Shown here piece by piece: positions 41,440 through 64,000 of a DNA stretch of 64,000 bases. The position numbers were made by a program, and so were the translations under genes. Source of the stretch: Closterium sp. NIES-65 (lineage: Eukaryota; Streptophyta; Zygnematophyceae; Desmidiales; Closteriaceae); the NCBI GenBank assembly GCA_948144175.1, contig CANXME010002067.1, forward strand, positions 186,001 to 250,000. The letters are read 5' to 3'. Position 1 is the first letter of the stretch, and each line of letters begins with the position of its first letter. The notes under the pieces are model-generated. The model worked only from the letters and a program-made list of their open reading frames with translations. It ran no database searches and was not told the origin of the DNA.

Positions 41440-41568
41440 TGTCAGATTTATATGACATAGTTGCTGTAGGCTGTAGTGGGGTAGCACATATGGGGTACAG
41501 GGTTTCTAGGGTTGTATTTGTACCCAATCTTCCCTTAGTCATTTCATTCCTGTTTTCCTTGCTTCACA
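41440..41568 (+). repeat. 5' LTR of element 5 (129 bp)
   Basis: TGTCAGATTTATATGAC...TTGCTTCACA, followed directly by TGGTATAGAGCGGG. Confidence 0.95.
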
Positions 41569-48752: not shown

Positions 48753-48881
48753 TGTCAGATTTATATGACATAGTTGCTGTAGGCTGTAGTGGGGTAGCAC
48801 ATATGGGGTACAGGGTTTCTAGGGTTGTATTTGTACCCAATCTTCCCTTAGTCATTTCATTCCTGTTTTCCTTGCTTCACA
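48753..48881 (+). repeat. 3' LTR of element 5 (129 bp)
   Basis: Identical to the 5' copy as read here. Followed by GAAAA. Confidence 0.95.
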
Positions 48882-52114: not shown

Positions 52115-52123
52115 GCTTCTTCC
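52115..52123 (+). other. Left 9-bp target site duplication of the MULE
   Basis: GCTTCTTCC, identical to 61946-61954. Nine base pairs is the hallmark length for Mutator insertions. Confidence 0.95.
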
Positions 52124-52614
52124 GAGAGATTTTCTCCAGACCCGGAAACGGTGATTTGCCGTTGCACACGTAGGCTCAATTTGCTACCGTAGTCGGACAA
52201 TTTGATGATAATTGCTCGAATGGTCTTGCCAGAGGTTTCCTCTGGTTTTTTTTTTATCCGGCACATTACCCAAAACCGGTTTTTAGCCCTGCTTTTCTCA
52301 CGTCGTTCGTAACTCTTCCCGCAAAAACGTGGCGTGTGTTTTTCCGCCCGATTTTTTCGGCTGGGTGACGTGCGCGAGAGCGGCCACGTCATCGTTCGAA
52401 TACACGACAATAATCAACACGATCATGTTCGGCGAACAGTCGCGCTCATTTTCGGTCCAATGATTGACCAATCCGCGCATAGAGATATGAATCCCCGATC
52501 ATATACTCAATTGCACGACTGTCCACACGCGCGACCAATTACAGAGCGCGTGTGATTGGTCGACTCTATGCGCGGGCCCTTTTTTTATCTTGCGCGTCCA
52601 ATCAGGCGCGCTCA
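52124..52614 (+). repeat. Left terminal inverted repeat of the MULE (about 490 bp)
   Basis: Pairs with 61452-61945 at high identity, with few substitutions and small length changes in the T run near 52245. Short open frames inside are shadows and appear in both copies. Such long repeats usually hold the promoter of the neighbouring gene. Confidence 0.9.
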
Positions 52615-52887
52615 TATAGGGTCACGCCCATATGAGATCGCGCTACTGGAAATGGAATATATGTTTAAACTCACCAATGCTACAAAAGGTACACACGCCG
52701 AAACAAAACCTCTGGCCAATAAGAGTCAAATTGAAACGCTAAGTCAATATCCCGCGTTTTTTTTTTTTTTAAGTGATGCAACGCACCTCACACACCCTAT
52801 TCTCTCGTCGTTTTAGGGTTGACATCCTACTTTGTTCCCGTATCTCTTCTAGGAGGTAATTCAGTTGGAACGTTTCTACTAGCCGCA

Positions 52888-55847
52888 ATGGGTTCGTCAT
52901 CTAATACTACTAACACAGAGTACGACTCAGGCGACGAAGATACGGAGTTTTGTTTTGTTGGCACTGGAGAGCCCAAGCAGAGTGATATGTACCGTGCATT
53001 GCTCCGAAATATGACGGATGAAGATAATCACTCGCCACCATTAGTGATAAACGATCGAGCCCCGTTGTGTGAAGGTCAACTGTACTCCTCGAAGAAATTT
53101 ATGTACGAGGCGTTGGAAGATTATTCGGTAGCCCACAACTTCGGTTTTAGGGTTTCAAAGAGTAGGCCAAACAGAGCCAGCGCTATATGCATGAGTCACC
53201 ATGAGCGACGTAAACCAGCTTGCAAGTGGCGGTGTGAGTACTCAACTGACGGAGCGGGTGGGTTTTGGCGTGTTAATAAACTGTCCGCCCCAACATCTCA
53301 TTGTTGCTCACCCGTTGATCGGGACCGCTACGTCAACCACACTACAAATAAAGTACCATATCTACAGCGTCATCATGGGAACCTTGTCCACGCCGCTCCA
53401 CATCACCCTCCCGGGACTTACAAGGATCAGATTGCGTCGACCGGCGGTCCTGACATCAGTTATCATCAATCTTGGAGGTAAGTATTATAGCATTCTATTG
53501 TGGTTCCCAACCTTCCATCTCATCCGTGTACCATAAAGAAATGTTCATGATTACCCACACGATGTCTCTCATGTTCGTGCTACATGCCTATACTGTCTTG
53601 CACGTTATCACCAATCATCGCAGGCTCAAGGAAAAGATGTTGAAGGAGCGGTTTGGAGATTGGAAAACATCGTTTCGTTACATCCCTCGCCTGTTGGAAC
53701 GCTTCAGGGCGATTGACCCTGAAGCAACGCTCGACCTTGTGACAAAGGATCACGCTTTCTTCCGTGCTTTTGCCACCCCATCGGCATAAAAAACTGCCCT
53801 AAGGTTCTGTCGACCGGTCATTGGTATGGATGGCACGTTTCTCATTCGGGCACAGCGTGCTACGCTCTTGGTTGCAGCTGCTAAGGATGGCAATAACCAG
53901 CTTGTTCCACTTGCGTACGGCCTATGCGAGAGTGAGAATAAGGATAGTTGGAAGTGGTTTTGTGAGAACTTGTTGAAGCATATTCCATCTTGGCCAACCA
54001 CACAGAATGCCTCCCTTATTAGTGACCGTGACAAGGGGTTGATTCCTGCTGTTAAAGAAGTGTTCCCATTGCAGCTTCCCCACTACTTTTGCAGCTGGCA
54101 TTTGGAGCAAAATGTGCTAAAGTTTGGGCCCAACGCCTCGGACCTCTTCAAGAAGCTCGCCAACTGCCGCACCAAGGCGAAGTTTGGGAAACTCGTGAGG
54201 AGATGCCGGCAGCAGTGCGCCGCAATGGCTAACTATATTTTCGGGGTTGAAGAAGGTCGTGCGCAACAGACCGGTGGCCGACGCAAAACCAACCGACGAG
54301 CTAGCGTGCCAGAGTCAGGAGATGAGTTAAGGAGCATGAATAGTGCCGCAAAACAGGCAAGAAAGGCGAGGATAGAGTTGCGGCGGCAAAGACGACGTCA
54401 AAGCAGGGGAGAGCAGCAGCAAACAATGGCGGCAGATGATACCGCTAACCACACCTTTCCCTCCATGCCCCATTCGCTGGCTGCCGACATTGTTGATTCA
54501 TCGGCTCAAGAGACCACACCAACATCTTTGCTCCCTTCGTTCGCAGGCGATAACCAAGGACACGAGCCGGCACCTTTGGACGATATTCAACCGGAAACAG
54601 ATGCCACACCAGAAGTGTTCAATGACCAGTTCGAGGTGGAGGACGGGAGTCAGATCAGCTGCGGGGAGGATTCCGGGGATGAGGACGGTACAGATAATGG
54701 CCACTGCTCACATCCCACCACTACGCTGACTGATCCAACGCTATCCAACGCAGCTGCGCAACAAGCGGCCAAGATGCGGCAAAGGCGGAAGGAGATCCTT
54801 AGAGGGAAACGGGATGCAAGGGTTGGAAGGACCAGTGTCTTCGACAACAGGGCAACAACCGACCCTCATTTGCCAACGCAAGAGAGCCAAACACAACGTC
54901 ATCCAACACTTCAGCACCGTGTCCCCCCCCCCATGGGTCGACGGAACGAAGCAGGACGAAGTGCGGACGTAACCGGCGGTCCTGAGACGGGGTTGGGTGG
55001 ATTGGGCAATGCGGATGCTCAGCAAGGGGCTGGGGACCAGATGGAGGAAGGTGCAGGCATAATCGTTCGCACGAGACAGGATGGCCCCAGGTACAAGAGG
55101 AAAAAGAAGATTACAGTCTTCATCAAGCAATGGGCACGGTGTTATGCCCCCACGTGTCGCTTTGGTATCTACAGCAGCCAAATGGTGGAGTCCATAAACA
55201 ACGCTATCAAGAAGATCCGTATTCTGCCCGTGACGTACGTAATGGCGGGCATGTGGGACTGGATGGCACATATCTACTCGGATGGACAGCGTAGATCTTT
55301 AAACTGGCAGCATACGTTGACGGTCGAGGGTGAGAAGCGGTTTGAGCTGAAAAAGAACCGAAGCCGTGGCTACAGGGTCACACGCAACGGTCCAAGCAAT
55401 GCAGAGGTTCGAAACAAGGGCTCCCTGCTGGATCCACGTCCTCTATCCTTCAACAATGATGTCGGAGAGAGATCGTGCGAATGCAAAAACTGGCAGGAGT
55501 ATCGGTTCCCATGCTCACATGCATTTGCACACTTACGGAAGAGGGGAATGGATCCTATACCCTTTATTTCCAGGTATTGGAAGGCCGACAACTGGAAAAA
55601 GACTTATGGGTCTCTCATTCCGTATTCGTGTGTAGACACGGTTATTGCTGAAAACGAGCCAGTTGAGGAGGGAGTTTGTGATCCTCCTATTTTTGTGCAG
55701 AGAGGAGCAGGGCGGCCACAATCAAACCGAAGGCGTGAAGCCCCTAAACGGAGATACAAGTGCGGTGACTGTGGCTCGACGGAGCATACCCGGAAGAAAT
55801 GTAAGGGCAAATATGGGGGGTCAGGTGTGTATCACGTAGCAAGCTAG
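52888..55847 (+). pseudogene. MuDR/MURA-type transposase, two exons, one in-frame stop
   Basis: Cuts and pastes the MULE. ATG at 52888. Exon 1 to 53477 holds an N-terminal MuDR DNA-binding domain (LYSSKKFMYEALEDYSVAHN; CKWRCEY). A donor GGAG|GTAAGT at 53478 and acceptor CGCAG at 53623 split an Arg codon, giving SYHQSWRLKEK, as the family requires. The MULE catalytic domain follows with Asp 266 (GMDGTFL), Asp 331 (LISDRDKG) and Glu 719 (MVESINNAI). A SWIM zinc finger has Cys 815, Cys 817, Cys 827 and His 829, and a terminal CCHC knuckle has Cys 910, Cys 913, His 918 and Cys 923. TAA at 53787-53789 (codon 252) interrupts the frame 14 codons before the first catalytic Asp. The gap between the second Asp and the Glu holds a long low-complexity insertion. 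Confidence 0.9.
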
Positions 55848-57075
55848 TGGTACGGTGATAGTTTGATTGCTGAATATTAACTACTGCATATGAATGTTAG
55901 GGAATGTGGTACGTTGCATGCACTTTACTACTAGGAGAAAAAGAGCAACGAATTGCCATGACTTGAAGATATATGAAACTCCATATGACCGGCCATAAAC
56001 ATTACTGCCCCTGACCATTAGTACGCACAGGCGCAATCCACGCGCTGTATTCACACGTGCAAATGACGAGGCAAATGCAGACGCACATATGACCGGTCAT
56101 ATGTGCACGCGCATATGACCGATCATTAACGGACGAGCATATTACCTCACCAATGACCGGATGGGTACAATGTTACCACGCGAGCCTGACGTTACGTGCC
56201 AAGGACGGATGCGTTTTGAGGTCTACTTTCCATCATGTGATTTTGTATCGCGAAATTAGGGTTCACGACAATTAGGAAATTGCATATATGTGCACCGGAA
56301 TAGACATATTGTATACATGGATGAAACATCTTTTGAGTGGAGTTTAAGTAGCGAAATGTTAGAAGGACCTGATAGTCCTTAATCTCGTGTCCATCACATC
56401 AATACACAACAACGCTAAACATACTACCACCCGGTACAGCCCATGCAACACACTCATGGGTAATATTAAATCCCTTAGCCACTATACTCTCAAGAACAGA
56501 ATGGTGGTTCGATTAAGGTTGGTTGGGGTGCGTAAACCTAACCCATACTGCTATACCCCATATAACAACCCTCATGTAAAAATATATCATACGACGATAC
56601 CGTTCACGTATCCATACTTCTTTTTTTGGCCATATCCATGTTACCAGGAATGGAGTGTTGGCCCTGCCCTCGCTTGGGCAACGCCGGCGACTTGGTCGGA
56701 TGTACGGGAGTAGCAACCGACCGTTCACAGTGGAGAGCTGCTCGACAGGATTCGTCGAGCTGCAGGGGACCGCTGTGGTGTTGCTATCGACCAGGGAGCT
56801 CGACAGCTGCAACTGACTGGTCTGGGCGACGGGTGGGGCGTCGACCAGGACCTACAGCTCGACCAGGAGGTCTTCGGAGCATTCTGTCGACCTAATGTTC
56901 GACTTGGAGTTTCATACGTGTACCCATCTCCTTGTTAGTTCAACCACTCATTGTTTTGTAATTTTCACACACATTGCGTGGATGTTGCGCATTTGGAAAC
57001 TAGGGTTGTATGCTTCTAGAACATTGCCGTTGTGCTAGATCAACTGCAAATTTTTGGGGTTACATGTATTGTACA
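55848..57075. other. Spacer of the MULE between its genes, with ATGACCGG palindromes
   Basis: No convincing gene. ATGACCGG(C/T)CAT-type palindromes occur near 55986, 56088 (as CATATGACCGGTCATATG), 56115 and 56154. A short region 56740-56880 repeats (A/C)TCGACCAGG. The stretch would hold the 3' untranslated region of the transposase gene. Confidence 0.6.
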
Positions 57076-57205
57076 TGTCAGAATATTATTCTTATGTTCT
57101 AGCCTGTAGTGGGGTGCTCTATAGCGAGTACAACCCTTCTAGGGTTTGCTATTTGTATCCCCATTTCTGCTAGTTCATTCCTCTTTCTTTCTTCAAACTT
57201 TGTCA
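57076..57205 (+). repeat. Solo LTR of the short-LTR Copia lineage (130 bp), diverged
   Basis: TGTCAGAATATTATTC...AACTTTGTCA keeps the lineage core (GCCTGTAGTGGGGT, GAGTACAACCCTTCTAGGGTTT) but differs at many sites from LTRs of elements 0-6. Flanks GTACA (57071-57075) and ATACA (57206-57210) look like a duplication with one mutation. No internal Copia sequence accompanies it. Confidence 0.8.
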
Positions 57206-57843
57206 ATACATACAGAATTATGTATCGTTATCAGGCCTTTTAAGGCGCGCTGACGCGCCTTTTCAAATAGCGTATGGCGCTTTATGACCGGCCATATAAG
57301 ACGTGCATAAGACCGGTCATACAGGAACGTGCATTGCACAGGTTGAATGGCACGTCTAATTGCCCGATCAATTACTGGGTGAATTTCCATTGGTCGAAGA
57401 TACTGTCGGAAATGGTTGGCAATCCAACCCTCGTATGGAATTCTGAAGAGATGCGTGTTCACTCTGTGCCGGGGTCCGACAGTGTGACATTTGGGCTCGC
57501 ACGTAACAGCGCAACCATGAGTTTCGTGCCTCATGTGGTTTCGCGAGTTTAAAATAACACGTTCGTAAAAAGTAGTTTCGCTCACGAAATCGAGTTACCA
57601 TCGATTCAATCGCGAGCTACATAAATGATCCGCATCCATTTAGCTAACCTGAACCACGGTGTTTCACCCGATCAATTTCAAGCCGATCGTGTTCTTATCT
57701 CTGAGTCACACAGCACAGAAAATTAGGGTTCTCGTTGTAGTCACGCTACTATAGCTCCTAGGTCTTAGTCCGGGACAGCTCCACGTAGCATCACCTCGTA
57801 ATTACATATCACAGCTGCGGACGGCGCGTTGCATATCGTTACT
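57206..57843 (+). promoter_or_regulatory. Upstream region of the ULP1-AP2 gene
   Basis: Two more palindromic motifs are present: TATGACCGGCCATA near 57285 and GACCGGTCAT near 57312. No TATA box can be assigned with confidence. No ORF of interest. Confidence 0.35.
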
Positions 57844-60800
57844 ATGACAGGTCGCGCCGCTAGAGGTAGGAAGGCCGCGAAAAACACCCGTGATGACACA
57901 CCGGCTGGGAAACTCTCTCGAAAACGGGAAAATGCGTCACAACCCGACGTAGAGTCTGGCGAGGATGACGGGCATCGTCGAAGTGATAGGCTGAAGTTGG
58001 CGCATGCACACTACTCGTCTACTAAAGAGCAGGGCGCCACGAATCTTGAGCCGGTGGTATTGAATAAGGTAGCCCCTCACGATTACGGCCTGGAGCCCCC
58101 GTTTGACTCACCGTCGGTACACTCTCCGCCGGACGACCTTATCGCAAAAATCACGGCAGATGTTCAAATCCCGTTTCTAGATACTCATGAGGAGACTAGC
58201 ACTATTGCGGCCAAGTTAAAGCATCCATTGTTTCCCACCAATGCGATTCGTGATCATCACGGAATGACATCAATTATTTCGTTGGCCGATGCTCTCCACA
58301 TCACCGACAACCAGCCGATCACGCAGCCGTTGATAGATTTTCATAACATGTGAGTGTCACACCGCGGACATGCTGTATCATTTGCTGCAGTTGTGGGGCC
58401 ATTATCACGATGGCCGGTCTTATTGCCATACCCACATCTTCTGATTCTAACGCAAACAACTCCCTATTGCTTTTGACCTATTTAATGGCTGTGTAAACGC
58501 AGAGTGCTGAACATCCGCCAGCCCAAGTTGAGCAACGGCAAGACGTGGCTCGCGTTGGACAGTCAGAGTTACGACTACTTCTGCTCTCGAGGCAAGATAG
58601 CCGAATGTGTCACGGGACCGTCGATCTTCAGCTACGACTATCTAGCCATGCCAATCTATGGCGGGTAACTTGCAGTATCACGATTCGCTAGTCTCTCCAA
58701 CTCTCTAACGTCTTCTGCCGTTGTAATGCCTAAGCACTGACAAATATTGTGGATTAACGAACGATGCAGGTTTCATTTCAGTGTCATGATTGTCGTCAAC
58801 CCTGGAGTTGTGACTCTCACGCTCGACGAGGACAGCACCACAGAGCCTGCGTGGTTGCTGCTATACGACTCTTTCGGGATGCATGCTGTGGGGGGCAATG
58901 CTTTCAAGAACATGACCAAGTAAGTTTTTTTTTGGGGTGCGTACGACCATTCCCACACAAGCACTCCAACATAGCTCTGCTAGCTTATGTCTCACTAAAC
59001 CACACACTAATCCGCCTTTTTTATATCACAAATTCGACCGGGTGACAGCTTGCTTGGCATGGCCTTCGAGAAGGAGCATGGCAACCGCACGGTACAAGAG
59101 ATGAAGGCGAGGCTTGGGCGCTTCAAGCCACACGTCATGGAGGTGAGTTGACTTGAATAACGCTCGTCAACCATGCTACAACATCCCGTTGTCAAATGAT
59201 TCTACATGCCACCCCTTGTCAAATGATGCTCGTGTACTCTATTGTTCTCATTTATGCTGCATGTGGCATAGGTGTTTAGCAGGCGTGGCAAATGCCTCTG
59301 CAGCAGAATGAATATGACTGCGGCATCTTTGTATGCCAGTACATTCAAGCGCTAGTGGAGGCATGCTTCGAAGGTGCTGAGCATGGGGTCCGGTTCAGCA
59401 TGAGCCCACTGGCATACCGACGTGTTATACGGGAGGATGTGTGCGCCCTGGCAGAAGGACGGCTGATCGGGGAGCTCATAGCAGCTGGGCATGAGATCCC
59501 TCCTGGCAATGAGATTAGGAAACCACCTGAGTTTGAGGTGATTGGCGATGAGGTGGAGGATAGGGAGTGGAGAGCGGAGATGGCAGAGCGGATGCATAGG
59601 CTGGAGGTTCGAAATGAGAGTCAGGCAGTGGCTATTGCCAAGCTCGAGAGGCAACTGCGTGAGCTGATGCTGTCCCGTACTCCACAGCCGGGCATTGGCG
59701 GTGTGGATATAGGGGAGGGACATGGTGATGTGGGAGGGGACGTTGCAGGAGAGGGACATGTTGATGTGGGACAGGTAGCTACAGGGCAGGGACATGGGGA
59801 TGCGGGAGGGGATGCTGTAGGGGAGGGACATGGGGATGTGGGAGGGAACAACGCTGGCACACATGACAGCATGAGAGGTGCACATGGCGAGGGTCCTGAG
59901 GCTGACGTTGAGGCGGGTGTAGGTGGGATTAACAGTAAGCTTGAAAAAGATGGAGATGGTGATATGGCGGACGGTGCGAGGAGGGACAATGAGGAACTGG
60001 GGTTGCGTGATGAAGGTGCCAAAGGGTTGTTGGGTACTACGGATGGTAACAGAGGTGCAAGAGAGGCCGTGGGTGCTGGGCATGGTGTGACAGCCTTTAA
60101 CGCGGATGTGGATTTAGTGTCCGCCCACAGCACAGGGACTGAGACAACGAGTCGCAACACTGCGCGTGGTCGAGCTCCTAGCTTTGGCTATACTGGCGTA
60201 ACCAAACGGGAAGGAAGGTGGGCGGCACGACTGTGCGTAGATAGCGCAAAGAGTAAGTTTTTAGTGCTTGGACGGTATACGGAGATCTTGGATGCCGCAA
60301 AAGCATATGCCGCAGCCGCCCACATTTGCCGACCGTCCCTCTCCAGCTCAACGATGGTGGAGTTGAGCGTGGAGGAGAGGCGGTGCTTGGAGGGACTGAC
60401 GACGCAAGGGGTTGCAAGGATAGTGGAGGCCAAGCGGTGGGCAGAGTGGAGGAACTGGCGAGAAGTGCTCGGCAGCCTCCCTGAGCCTTCCATCCCAACG
60501 CCAGCAGGAGTACACACACAGGCTCCACCCCCCTTTTCCCACCAGCACCCTGGAGCCACGTTTGGCAACTACCACCCGCCAGCCGCCGCCTTCGCGGGAC
60601 ACGCCGGTGCAGCCCTTAACCCTGGTGCATGGCAGCCGTACAATCAGAACCGCCCTCCTCCCAACCTCCATTTTCCATCCAAGCAGTTTGCTTTCAACCA
60701 AATCCCAAACCATCCATTCAGCCAGGTGCAAGCCCCTATCCCCGTACACCCAACCCCTTCATTACCCATTGCTCCCAACCCTGCAGGCCATGCCGCTTCA

Positions 60801-61160
60801 CAGAACACAGCACCCCATCCGCATGTCCTACCAACACCACCATCCGTTGCACCCAGTACGGCACATCCAGTATCTGACCCACAAACCCAACCAGTCCGAC
60901 CCGCAGGGCAAACTGGACAGGTCAGGGTACATGGCCTGACATATTCACAGTCGACTTCTCCCAACAATCCCAACCCAACGTCCCACGGCTCCGCACTGGC
61001 AAGCGAGCCAGCAACAGGTGAGATGTGTGGTTGTGTCATATTAGTGCTTATTCATATGCTGTAGTTTCACTAAACTCTGCATTAATCTAATGAACTTGTT
61101 TGCTAAACCTGTGCAGGGGCGGCGGACGACATCATCGATGCCTTTCTGCACAATAACTGA
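57844..61160 (+). CDS. ULP1-type cysteine protease fused to an AP2-like domain, six exons (896 aa)
   Basis: ULP1-family proteases process SUMO or related conjugates. Exons 57844-58349, 58503-58664, 58770-58919, 59049-59142, 59283-61017 and 61117-61160 all have GT-AG borders and compatible phases, and total 897 codons with TGA at 61158. The N-terminus is basic. The protease region includes LALDSQSYDYF, then His 225 (FHFSVMIVV), Asp 256 (LLYDSFG), Gln 311/312 and Cys 317 (QQNEYDCGIFVCQYI): the full catalytic set. A coiled-coil-like segment and GEGHGDVGGD repeats (about 445-505) follow. Residues 604-653 read GYTGVTKREGRW...LGRYTEILDAAKAYAAAA, an AP2-like pattern. A Pro/Ala/Gln-rich tail ends the protein. 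No stop or frameshift. It lies within the MULE, downstream of the transposase and on the same strand. ULP1 in MULEs is known; the AP2 fusion I have not seen described. Confidence 0.85.
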
Positions 61161-61451
61161 TGAGACGTATGGTCAACAATGACATTGCGTGCTCAGTACA
61201 CATCAAATCTACGTAATATCATTGTAGCCATGCGTAGAGGTCGACATGCCTACAGATACAATAAACCCTATGATTGCTAAATGAACGGACCGCACAGTGT
61301 TATAAAGATACAATGGCAAAACACCGGTAGTGAACGTCTCCCGATTCTATTAATATAGTTGTTTATTAATAAAACAGATCGCACACACATTCGAGCACCA
61401 CATATGCGCGCTCATATAGGTAAATGCGCGGTTTTATATGAGCGCGATCTT

Positions 61452-61945
61452 ACATGACCGCGCCTGATTGGACGCGCAAGGTAAAAAAGTACTTTGCGCA
61501 TAGAGTCAACCAATCACACGCGCTCTGTAATTGGTCGCGCGTGTGGACAGTCGTGCAATTGAGTATATGATCGCGGATTCATATCTCTATGCGCGGATTG
61601 GTCAATCATTGGACCGAAAATGAGCGCGACTGTTCGCCGAACATGATCGCGTCGATTATTGTCGTGTATTCGAACGATGATGTGGCCGCTCTCGCGCACG
61701 TCACCCAGCCGAAAAAATCGGGCGGAAAAACACACACCACGTTTTTGCGGGAAGAGTTACGAACGACGTGAGAAAAGCAGGGCTAAAAACCGGTTTTGGG
61801 TAATGTGCCGGATAAAAAAAAAGCCAGAGGAAACCTCTGGCAAGACCACTCGAGCAATTATCATCAAATTGTCCGACTACGGTAGCAAATTGAGCCTACG
61901 TGTGCAACGGCAAATCACCGTTTCCGGGTCTGGAGAAAATCTCTC
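61452..61945 (-). repeat. Right terminal inverted repeat of the MULE (about 490 bp)
   Basis: Reverse complement of 52124-52614. The stretch 61161-61451 between the last exon and the repeat has no gene and should hold the 3' end of the ULP1-AP2 transcript. Confidence 0.9.
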
Positions 61946-61954
61946 GCTTCTTCC
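61946..61954 (+). other. Right 9-bp target site duplication of the MULE
   Basis: GCTTCTTCC, matching 52115-52123 exactly. Confidence 0.95.
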
Positions 61955-62810: not shown

Positions 62811-63746
62811 TGGTATAGAGCAGGTTCCCTGTGGGAACTTCGCCTAGGGCCCACCGAAGCGCGCCCCGAGGCGCGCGATTCCTTTTTTTTTTGCGACCCT
62901 CCGAGTCGCCCTGTCCCCTTGCGGCCCCGCCGCCCTTCAGACGCGGCCCCGCCACCCCCTCGCGCGGCCCCGCCACTCAGTCACGGCCCCGCCACCCAGT
63001 CGCGGCCCCGCCGCCCAGTCGCGGCCCCGCCGCCCGTTCTGATCGCGGCCCCACCGCCCAGTCGCGGCCCCGCCACTTCGTCGCGGCCCTGCCGCCCAGT
63101 CGCGGCCCCGCCACTTCGACGCGGCCCCGCCATCCCTTCGCGGCCCCGCCGCCTTTCTGCGGCCCGACCACCGCCCTACCAGCGGCCGTCCCGCCGCCCT
63201 ACCTGCGGCCCTACGCCGCCTCATCTGCGGCCCACCCGCCGCCCTACCCGCGGCCCTTCGCCGCCCTACCCGCGGCCCTTCGCCGCCCTACTTGCGGCCA
63301 GCCGCCGCCCTACCTGCGGCCCACCTGCCGCCCTATCAGCGGCCCGCCCGCCGCCCTACCTTCGCGGCCCAGCCGCCCTACCTCCACGGCCCCAGCAGCA
63401 GCCGAGCCGCCCGGAGCAACCGAACCGCCCGGAGCCGCCGAGCCGCCCGGGAGCAGCCGAGCCGCCCAGGAGCAGCCGAGCCGCCCAGCCGCAGCCGAGC
63501 CGCCCAGCCGCAGCCGACCCTGCGCCTGACCCGCCCTGCACCCGAACCGCCCAGCCGTCGAGCCGCCCGGGAGCCGAGCCGCCCTGCGCCCGAGCCGCCC
63601 AGCAGCCGAGCCGCCCAGCACCCGAGCCGCCAAGTCGCTGAGCCGCCTTTCTGCATATCTACACGACCTGCCCTGCCTGGTGAGCACAGTCCCACTGACA
63701 CTGCGAGCTCCTTCCCTGCTGCTTGCACTGCGTTGCTGTCGTCGCC
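62811..63746 (+). other. Leader of element 6: primer site, hairpins, minisatellites
   Basis: GGGCCC and the GCGCGCC/GGCGCGC hairpin are kept. The repeat units differ from element 5: CGCGGCCCCGCC(A/G)CCCAGT (62945-63130), CTACC(A/T)GCGGCCC units (63175-63360), then GAGCCGCCC units. Confidence 0.75.
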
Positions 63747-64000
63747 ATGGCTACCCCTAGTGTCCTAGCTTTTGACGCTGAGGGTCGCGCCATTGATTTT
63801 GAGGTCTGGTTAGACGACCTGCAGCTGTTCTTACAGTGCGACAGGGCTGACGACCTTTCTCTCTTTGATCTCACCTCTGACGCCTCTCCTGCTCCTGCTG
63901 CTGATGCTGATCCCGCTGTCCGCTCTAAGTGGGCCACCCGCGATGCTGCTGCACGTCTTGATGTGCGTCGCCACCTCCCTACCTCTGAGCGTGCGCACTT
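63747..64000 (+). CDS. Gag start of Copia element 6 (partial)
   Basis: ATG at 63747 begins MATPSVLAFDAEG, then WLDDLQLFLQCDRADD as in element 3. The frame is open to the last base. Two differences from element 5 stand out: Asp for Gly in LTSDASPAP and Asp for Ala in AARLDVRR. Whether the rest is intact cannot be seen. Confidence 0.9.
   Translation, partial: MATPSVLAFDAEGRAIDFEVWLDDLQLFLQCDRADDLSLFDLTSDASPAPAADADPAVRSKWATRDAAARLDVRRHLPTSERAH

Follow-up and report, generated by a model that had tools for sequence, protein, structure and literature searches.

A Mutator element of Closterium sp. NIES-65 carries a predicted ULP1-type protease gene with an AP2-like domain, relatives of which adjoin Plavaka-type transposases

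The stretch of DNA analysed here (the window; 64,000 nucleotides of Closterium sp. NIES-65, contig CANXME010002067.1, positions 186,001 to 250,000) contains a Mutator-like element (MULE) with terminal inverted repeats (TIRs), about 9.8 kb long (window positions 52124–61945, forward strand), in which a transposase gene is accompanied by a predicted gene joining a ULP1-type protease (family C48) to an AP2-like domain. Predicted gene content and layout show the same ULP1-AP2 gene on two unrelated transposon superfamilies of Closterium, Mutator and Plavaka/KDZ, and it may help both kinds of jumping genes to escape host silencing. Transposon-borne ULP1 is already known, while the AP2 fusion and its sharing between two superfamilies are what is new. 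We propose, with a probability of roughly 45%, that the product is a transposon accessory protein which would bind a palindrome in the intergenic DNA of its own element and strip SUMO there, as an anti-silencing factor comparable to VANC of the VANDAL MULEs.

The original prediction, made from the letters alone, had placed the gene on a Mutator element, and this is borne out by the ends and by the transposase. The two TIR arms (52124–52643, forward, and 61426–61945, reverse; ~520 bp each) pair over 451 bp at 98% complementarity and over an inner 63 bp at 84%, share an identical 27-base terminus, and are bordered by exact 9-bp target-site duplications GCTTCTTCC (52115–52123 and 61946–61954). 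Between the arms lie the predicted transposase gene (52888–55847, forward; start assigned by reading), whose frame 53790–55847 matches MULE (64.7 bits) and SWIM (26.1 bits), both above cut-off, and the ULP1-AP2 gene in the same orientation.

The ULP1-AP2 gene (57844–61160, forward strand) is predicted to consist of six exons with GT donors and AG acceptors, and its joined translation is a single frame of 896 aa with zero internal stops, as first proposed; a CAG acceptor was chosen for exon 5, the TAG acceptor at 59280 giving 897 aa. Exon 1 (57844–58349) encodes an N-terminus without Pfam match, residues 32–168 of which are 65% identical in a relative from the second MULE clade (L060); the ULP1 fold begins in exon 2 (58503–58664), exon 3 (58770–58919) carries the catalytic His225 and Asp256, and exon 4 (59049–59142) is followed by exon 5 (59283–61017), an open frame containing Gln311, Cys317, a linker, the AP2-like domain (60183–60335; residues about 605–655), a post-AP2 module of helical appearance (60354–60482; residues about 662–704) conserved in the other ULP1-AP2 families aligned, and a Pro-rich C-terminus. 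Exon 6 with the stop codon occupies 61117–61160. The catalytic Cys317 and the AP2-like part are encoded by the same exon. Peptidase_C48 is matched with 27.1 bits (E 4.5e-6; Pfam cut-off 20.7), and H225, D256, Q311 and C317, found at the positions given by the original prediction, satisfy the catalytic order His-Asp-(Gln)-Cys; the closest solved chains to the C48 part are SENP8 and SENP2 (E 0.0065–0.0095). All 11 protein relatives at E<=0.001 (7993 candidates scored) come from Closterium strains. Among the deposited Closterium models of this family, six appear wrongly split or fused: P0008 and P0009 skip AP2, P0010 joins transposase to exon 5, and P0001–P0003 lack catalytic pieces.

The AP2 reading stood as a matter of homology. 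Homology of residues ~605–655 to AP2 beyond chance is supported by profile–profile comparison, by shuffle controls and by relatives, one of which passes the Pfam cut-off. The strongest support for this predicted homology is independent evidence, namely AP2 downstream of C48 at other loci of the genome. A C48 search of the same genome, with the best 150 of 339 candidates scored, listed 12 matches, 11 of which were examined (C2001 was left out), and AP2 lies downstream of C48 at 11 of 11. At the eight loci first examined, a hidden Markov model (HMM) found a same-strand downstream AP2 match in every case, that at L024 partial only; by tblastn, 10 of the 11 loci match the AP2 region of the window gene, and the eleventh, C637 (L031), is positive by HMM. 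The 11 loci are not all independent, C442 and C2298 being nearly identical.

Within the window gene itself, hhalign against five plant AP2 segments gave 95.7% (score 42.3), a score reached by none of 300 column shuffles (best 23.1), and against seven viral HNH-AP2 segments 95.6% (score 42.7; 0 of 200 shuffles, best 15.9); with relatives from the same genome added, these values are 97.6 and 97.7%. When the window's 1172 six-frame stretches are scored with a custom AP2 HMM, the gene's frame comes first (E 1.4e-7; the next at 0.22). Searched against the PDB, the profile of eight copies matches WRI1 (E 0.0012) and AtERF1 (E 0.3). A database holding 5.8 billion proteins was searched with the six-copy profile, and 1266 candidates of similar length that shared words with it were scored; the AP2+HNH protein P0013 (E 0.027) is the sole match at E<=10 and the only one outside the ULP1-AP2 family.

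Several results count against the AP2 assignment, and with it against the proposed function. The full 896-aa protein, in which C48 was detected, has zero Pfam AP2 matches at E<=1; one trimmed piece reaches 17.4 bits against a cut-off of 33.3, and a longer piece has no Pfam AP2 match. Among 62–65-aa pieces of eight family members, AP2 is found in two (18.5 and 17.1 bits, both below cut-off), with no match for the window copy's own piece. The domain starts with YTG in all eight MULE sequences aligned, versus YRG/YKG in plant AP2 chains. In AP2 domains, the basic residue of this motif contacts DNA; family A relatives carry YKG at this place. The PDB searches placed a RanBP2 chain above the AP2 chains via summed weak repeats, none of its single stretches passing alone. 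Structure prediction was divided: an AlphaFold model from nine close sequences has a predicted local distance difference test score (pLDDT) of 40 and helices rather than AP2, while a guided model shows strand-strand-strand-helix (strands 13–16, 19–27 and 32–39, helix 42–56; pLDDT 84–91 over residues 11–50) from an alignment which included 15 viral AP2 segments and is biased to the AP2 fold. Plant AP2 domains make up the nine best Foldseek matches of this biased model (E 0.0021–0.17), none of them at E<=0.001. The domain of the window copy is named AP2-like here, since it falls below the Pfam gathering score, which is a detection limit. That the likeness arose by accident in a disordered tail would agree with the sub-threshold Pfam score and the poor first fold, but none of the shuffles reached the observed scores and relatives only 31–39% identical over the module keep the AP2 pattern, with one of the scanned relatives over the Pfam cut-off, and we regard such an accident as highly improbable.

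The relative which passes the Pfam cut-off belongs to a different kind of transposon. In the C1773 element (family A), Pfam detects AP2 at 34.8 bits, above its cut-off, and C48 at 26.5 bits; the element keeps YKGV, and upstream of its ULP1-AP2 gene, on the other strand, lies a Plavaka transposase match (40.5 bits, likewise above cut-off). The ends of this element are 15 bp long (CATCGCGAAAAAGGG). C637 has the same layout, its Plavaka match of 37.8 bits also exceeding the Pfam cut-off, and right ends related to that of C1773 (<=2 mismatches) lie beyond the ULP1-AP2 gene in C637 and C1731. The AP2-bearing frames of C637 and C1731 have no Pfam AP2 match at E<=0.1. According to tblastn, a divergent Plavaka gene lies upstream at nine of 11 ULP1-AP2 loci (eight of the 10 scanned, plus C783); the scan was negative at C842 and C1731 and did not include C2298, and C1731 is grouped with the Plavaka-type loci by its right end and similarity only. 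By the same method, all 10 loci scanned match the Cys motif of the protease, and seven of the 10 match the His-Asp exon. The window's MULE transposase has no match in the 9.6–20 kb examined around the 11 other C48 loci. Plavaka/KDZ-type transposases (PF18759) are very numerous in this genome (at least 133 matches); a chance neighbourhood is argued against, in a comparison confined to Plavaka loci with ULP1-AP2, by DNA shared between families A and B (C946 against C637, 66–68%), by the repeated layout and by the short ends.

The AP2 and post-AP2 modules of the MULE copies align end to end with those of families A, B and C at 31–39% identity, and family A has its exons 2 and 3 as separate pieces at the place corresponding to the MULE gene; a single ancestral ULP1-AP2 gene therefore seems likelier than fusion on several occasions. 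In C783, the C48 tail and AP2 stand in one stop-free frame, and among the exon-5 matches listed there are 29 distant loci with C48 tail and AP2 and an equal listed frame length, 27 of them stop-free, C783 being the one that was read.

Further MULE copies with the protease-AP2 gene, which the original prediction had named as a check, were found in the genome (874 Mb, 2400 contigs). A search with exon 5, in which the best 75 of 63936 candidates were scored and 110 matches listed, contains among the matches listed five full-length copies besides the window's at 99%, each with its 594-aa frame open, more copies at 91–98%, and a second MULE clade at 72–79%, which has the transposase end and exons 1–4 upstream in unchanged order. 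In a TIR search (40 matches; best 40 of 261 candidates scored), at least nine loci, the window counted, have an exon-5 match framed by two TIRs; such copy numbers may be inflated, since host AP2 matches in the genome occur in frequent pairs of equal score and the assembly may therefore hold both haplotypes.

Ratios of nonsynonymous to synonymous substitution (Ka/Ks, by Nei-Gojobori) were compared among three MULE copies, the window, C1122 and C740. Between the window and C1122 the ratio is 0.12 in the C48 tail, 0.07 in the post-C48 part, 0.60 in the linker, 0.15 in AP2, 0.23 in the post-AP2 module and 0.58 in the Pro-rich C-terminus; the corresponding values, in the same order, are 0.08, 0.26, 0.58, 0.33, 0.15 and 0.59 for the window against C740, a pair with few changes, and 0.13, 0.11, 0.68, 0.16, 0.18 and 0.53 for C740 against C1122. 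By these estimates, purifying selection acts on both the protease and the AP2 part, and the parts joining them are much less constrained. Family A has a similar but weaker order, with C48 at 0.26–0.65, AP2 at 0.37–0.59 in most pairs (outliers 0.83–2.68) and the linker mostly at 0.5–1.6 (outliers 0.37 and 4–5). These values bear on whether the gene is a captured piece of host DNA, a passenger in the style of Pack-MULEs without benefit to the element, as MULEs are known to capture gene pieces (PMC2528002, PMC13317346; for these and all papers cited here, in the parts of the text available). Ratios of 0.12–0.15 in both domains between the MULE clades, many copies with open frames and the presence of the gene in two superfamilies all speak against a passenger, which we consider improbable.

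A candidate target for the AP2-like domain lies in the 2.0 kb between the two genes (55848–57843), which contain six separate TGACCG/CGGTCA sites, mostly inside ATATGACCGGTCATAT-like palindromes. The sites form two clusters of ATGACCGGTCAT-like motifs, the first (55986–56160) 139–307 bp past the transposase stop and the second (57285–57320) 530–559 bp ahead of the ULP1 start codon. Shuffles of this intergenic DNA have a mean of 0.98 sites and reach six in one of 1000; the raw motif count is seven, compared with a maximum of 4 elsewhere in the window (seven in 0 of 520 overlapping 2-kb stretches). The motif was picked after inspecting the window, and the fair test is C1122 of the second clade, a single locus: its 1.9 kb of intergenic DNA contain five sites (shuffle mean 0.79; reached in 0 of 1000), again after the transposase stop and about 430–545 bp before the start codon extrapolated from exon 1. 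The intergenic DNA of the window and C1122 aligns over one 128-bp stretch at 67%, within which one first-cluster site lies and is hence not independent, whereas the second cluster lies outside it.

Under the proposed function, a ULP1-type protease, acting on SUMO or another ubiquitin-like protein, would work in the nucleus, held by its C-terminal AP2-like module at the ATATGACCGGTCATAT palindromes in the DNA that separates the transposase gene from the ULP1 start, where it would free silencing or repressor proteins of SUMO or a related tag, and both element genes would thereby remain expressed. The original prediction had likewise supposed that the AP2 part tethers a deSUMOylating enzyme, at the element ends among other places. 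Purifying selection on both domains and the repeated palindrome speak for tethering, with the element ends a putative site: the 5' TIR and sub-terminal stretch contain no TGACCG core, and the 3' stretch has a single one.

To the results already weighed against this function, others have to be added. SENP8 and SENP2 score alike, so that the C48 match leaves SUMO and NEDD8 undistinguished. The H-D-C triad is incomplete in each of seven deposited gene models examined and also in P0012, and several family A copies are damaged: C1749 has a stop separating the two domains, C1773 a change of frame and C946 a stop within the AP2 module. Six regions taken from three Plavaka-group loci showed no motif enrichment, and in the MULE the motif could be bound instead by the transposase or a host factor.

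The same observations can be read in other ways. As a transposition cofactor, the protein would bind element DNA through its AP2-like part and deSUMOylate the transposase or repair factors, or free them of a related tag, so raising transposition; the retention of the gene beside a transposase in two superfamilies and the constraint on both domains would suit this role, but the motif is mostly intergenic and all but missing from the sub-terminal stretches, and the role appears unlikely. Somewhat more unlikely still is an AP2-derived part which has lost its DNA binding and serves as a protein-interaction or substrate-recognition module, with the protease free to act in any part of the cell. Such a module is favoured by the YTG that replaces YRG/YKG in the MULE copies and by AP2 scores near the detection limit; against it stand the enriched motif of the MULE and the Plavaka-type relative with its YKGV and its score above the Pfam cut-off. 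Between these and the anti-silencing function proposed for the MULE ranks a wider, tentative version of the latter, in which a portable ULP1-AP2 deSUMOylase would have passed between Mutator and Plavaka/KDZ elements, each lineage having its own target and the MULE target being ATATGACCGGTCATAT.

ULP1/C48 genes are known as the Kaonashi ULP-like (KIU) genes of non-TIR MULEs in Arabidopsis and from melon, rice and grapevine, where MULEs and CACTAs carry ULP1 (PMC6117577, PMC2528002, PMC13317346); descriptions from plant MULEs go back to 2006 (Hoen et al., cited by PMC6117577). The Closterium gene shares with these the ULP1/C48 domain on a MULE, and differs in lying on a TIR-MULE in the orientation of the transposase, in its AP2-like fusion, in its charophyte host and in its occurrence also on Plavaka-type elements. 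The family name first suggested for the window element, Kaonashi, did not survive, as KI-MULEs are non-TIR elements with ULP in reverse orientation to mudrA (PMC2528002), and the TIRs and the transposase orientation of ULP1 rule out this identity.

VANC of the VANDAL MULEs is an accessory protein which counteracts silencing sequence-specifically and binds repeated short motifs in the non-coding DNA of its elements (PMC5735166, PMC10398659). A 2026 review reports a Ulp1 domain in some VANC genes and calls its function unknown (PMC13317346); ULP, SUMO and protease go unmentioned in the available part of the VANC paper PMC10398659. Both VANC and the Closterium gene are accessory MULE genes, motif binding being reported for VANC and only proposed here. 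The VANC domains DUF1985 and DUF287 have no Pfam match in the full protein (E<=1) or in the exon-1 frame (E<=10); an AP2-like domain stands in their place, the element has TIRs and its anti-silencing role is putative. With the AP2/ERF factors AtERF1, WRI1 and TEM1 the domain shares AP2 profile homology and, in the guided model only, the strand-strand-strand-helix order; it differs in being protease-fused and transposon-borne, with about 30% identity and YTG for YRG. HNH endonucleases of phages and others also have AP2 on a mobile-type protein, but those are nucleases and the Closterium protein is a protease. As for Plavaka/KDZ transposons, the same ULP1-AP2 gene adjoins their transposases in this genome, while the window element itself is a MULE. 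No prior account of a ULP1-AP2 fusion, or of a gene of this kind shared by MULE and Plavaka elements, appeared in the searches made. A constrained fusion together with a candidate motif makes it directly testable whether the protease is tethered to the DNA of its element and whether it reverses SUMO-dependent silencing, and sharing between two superfamilies suggests persistence of the cassette rather than of a single element.

The transposase of the window copy is probably broken, because an in-frame TAA (53787–53789) stands just before its MULE domain where the NIES-65 protein P0010 has a residue, and the element probably depends on other copies for transposase. Its frame at 54250–55090 encodes about 280 low-complexity-looking residues separating the MULE domain from the SWIM part. 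At least seven loci (C450, C1718, C1006, C2029, C1743, C1165 and C985) have two TIRs ~1.49 kb apart and probably represent a short non-autonomous derivative. Within the intergenic DNA of the element, 57100–57195 has 73% similarity to window positions 41467–41566 and 48780–48879, which look like the ends of a long terminal repeat (LTR) retrotransposon, and is possibly a solo-LTR remnant inside the MULE. Beyond the element, 62860–64000 comprises a CCG-rich tract and, after it, a frame that we take to resemble a Copia-type gag.

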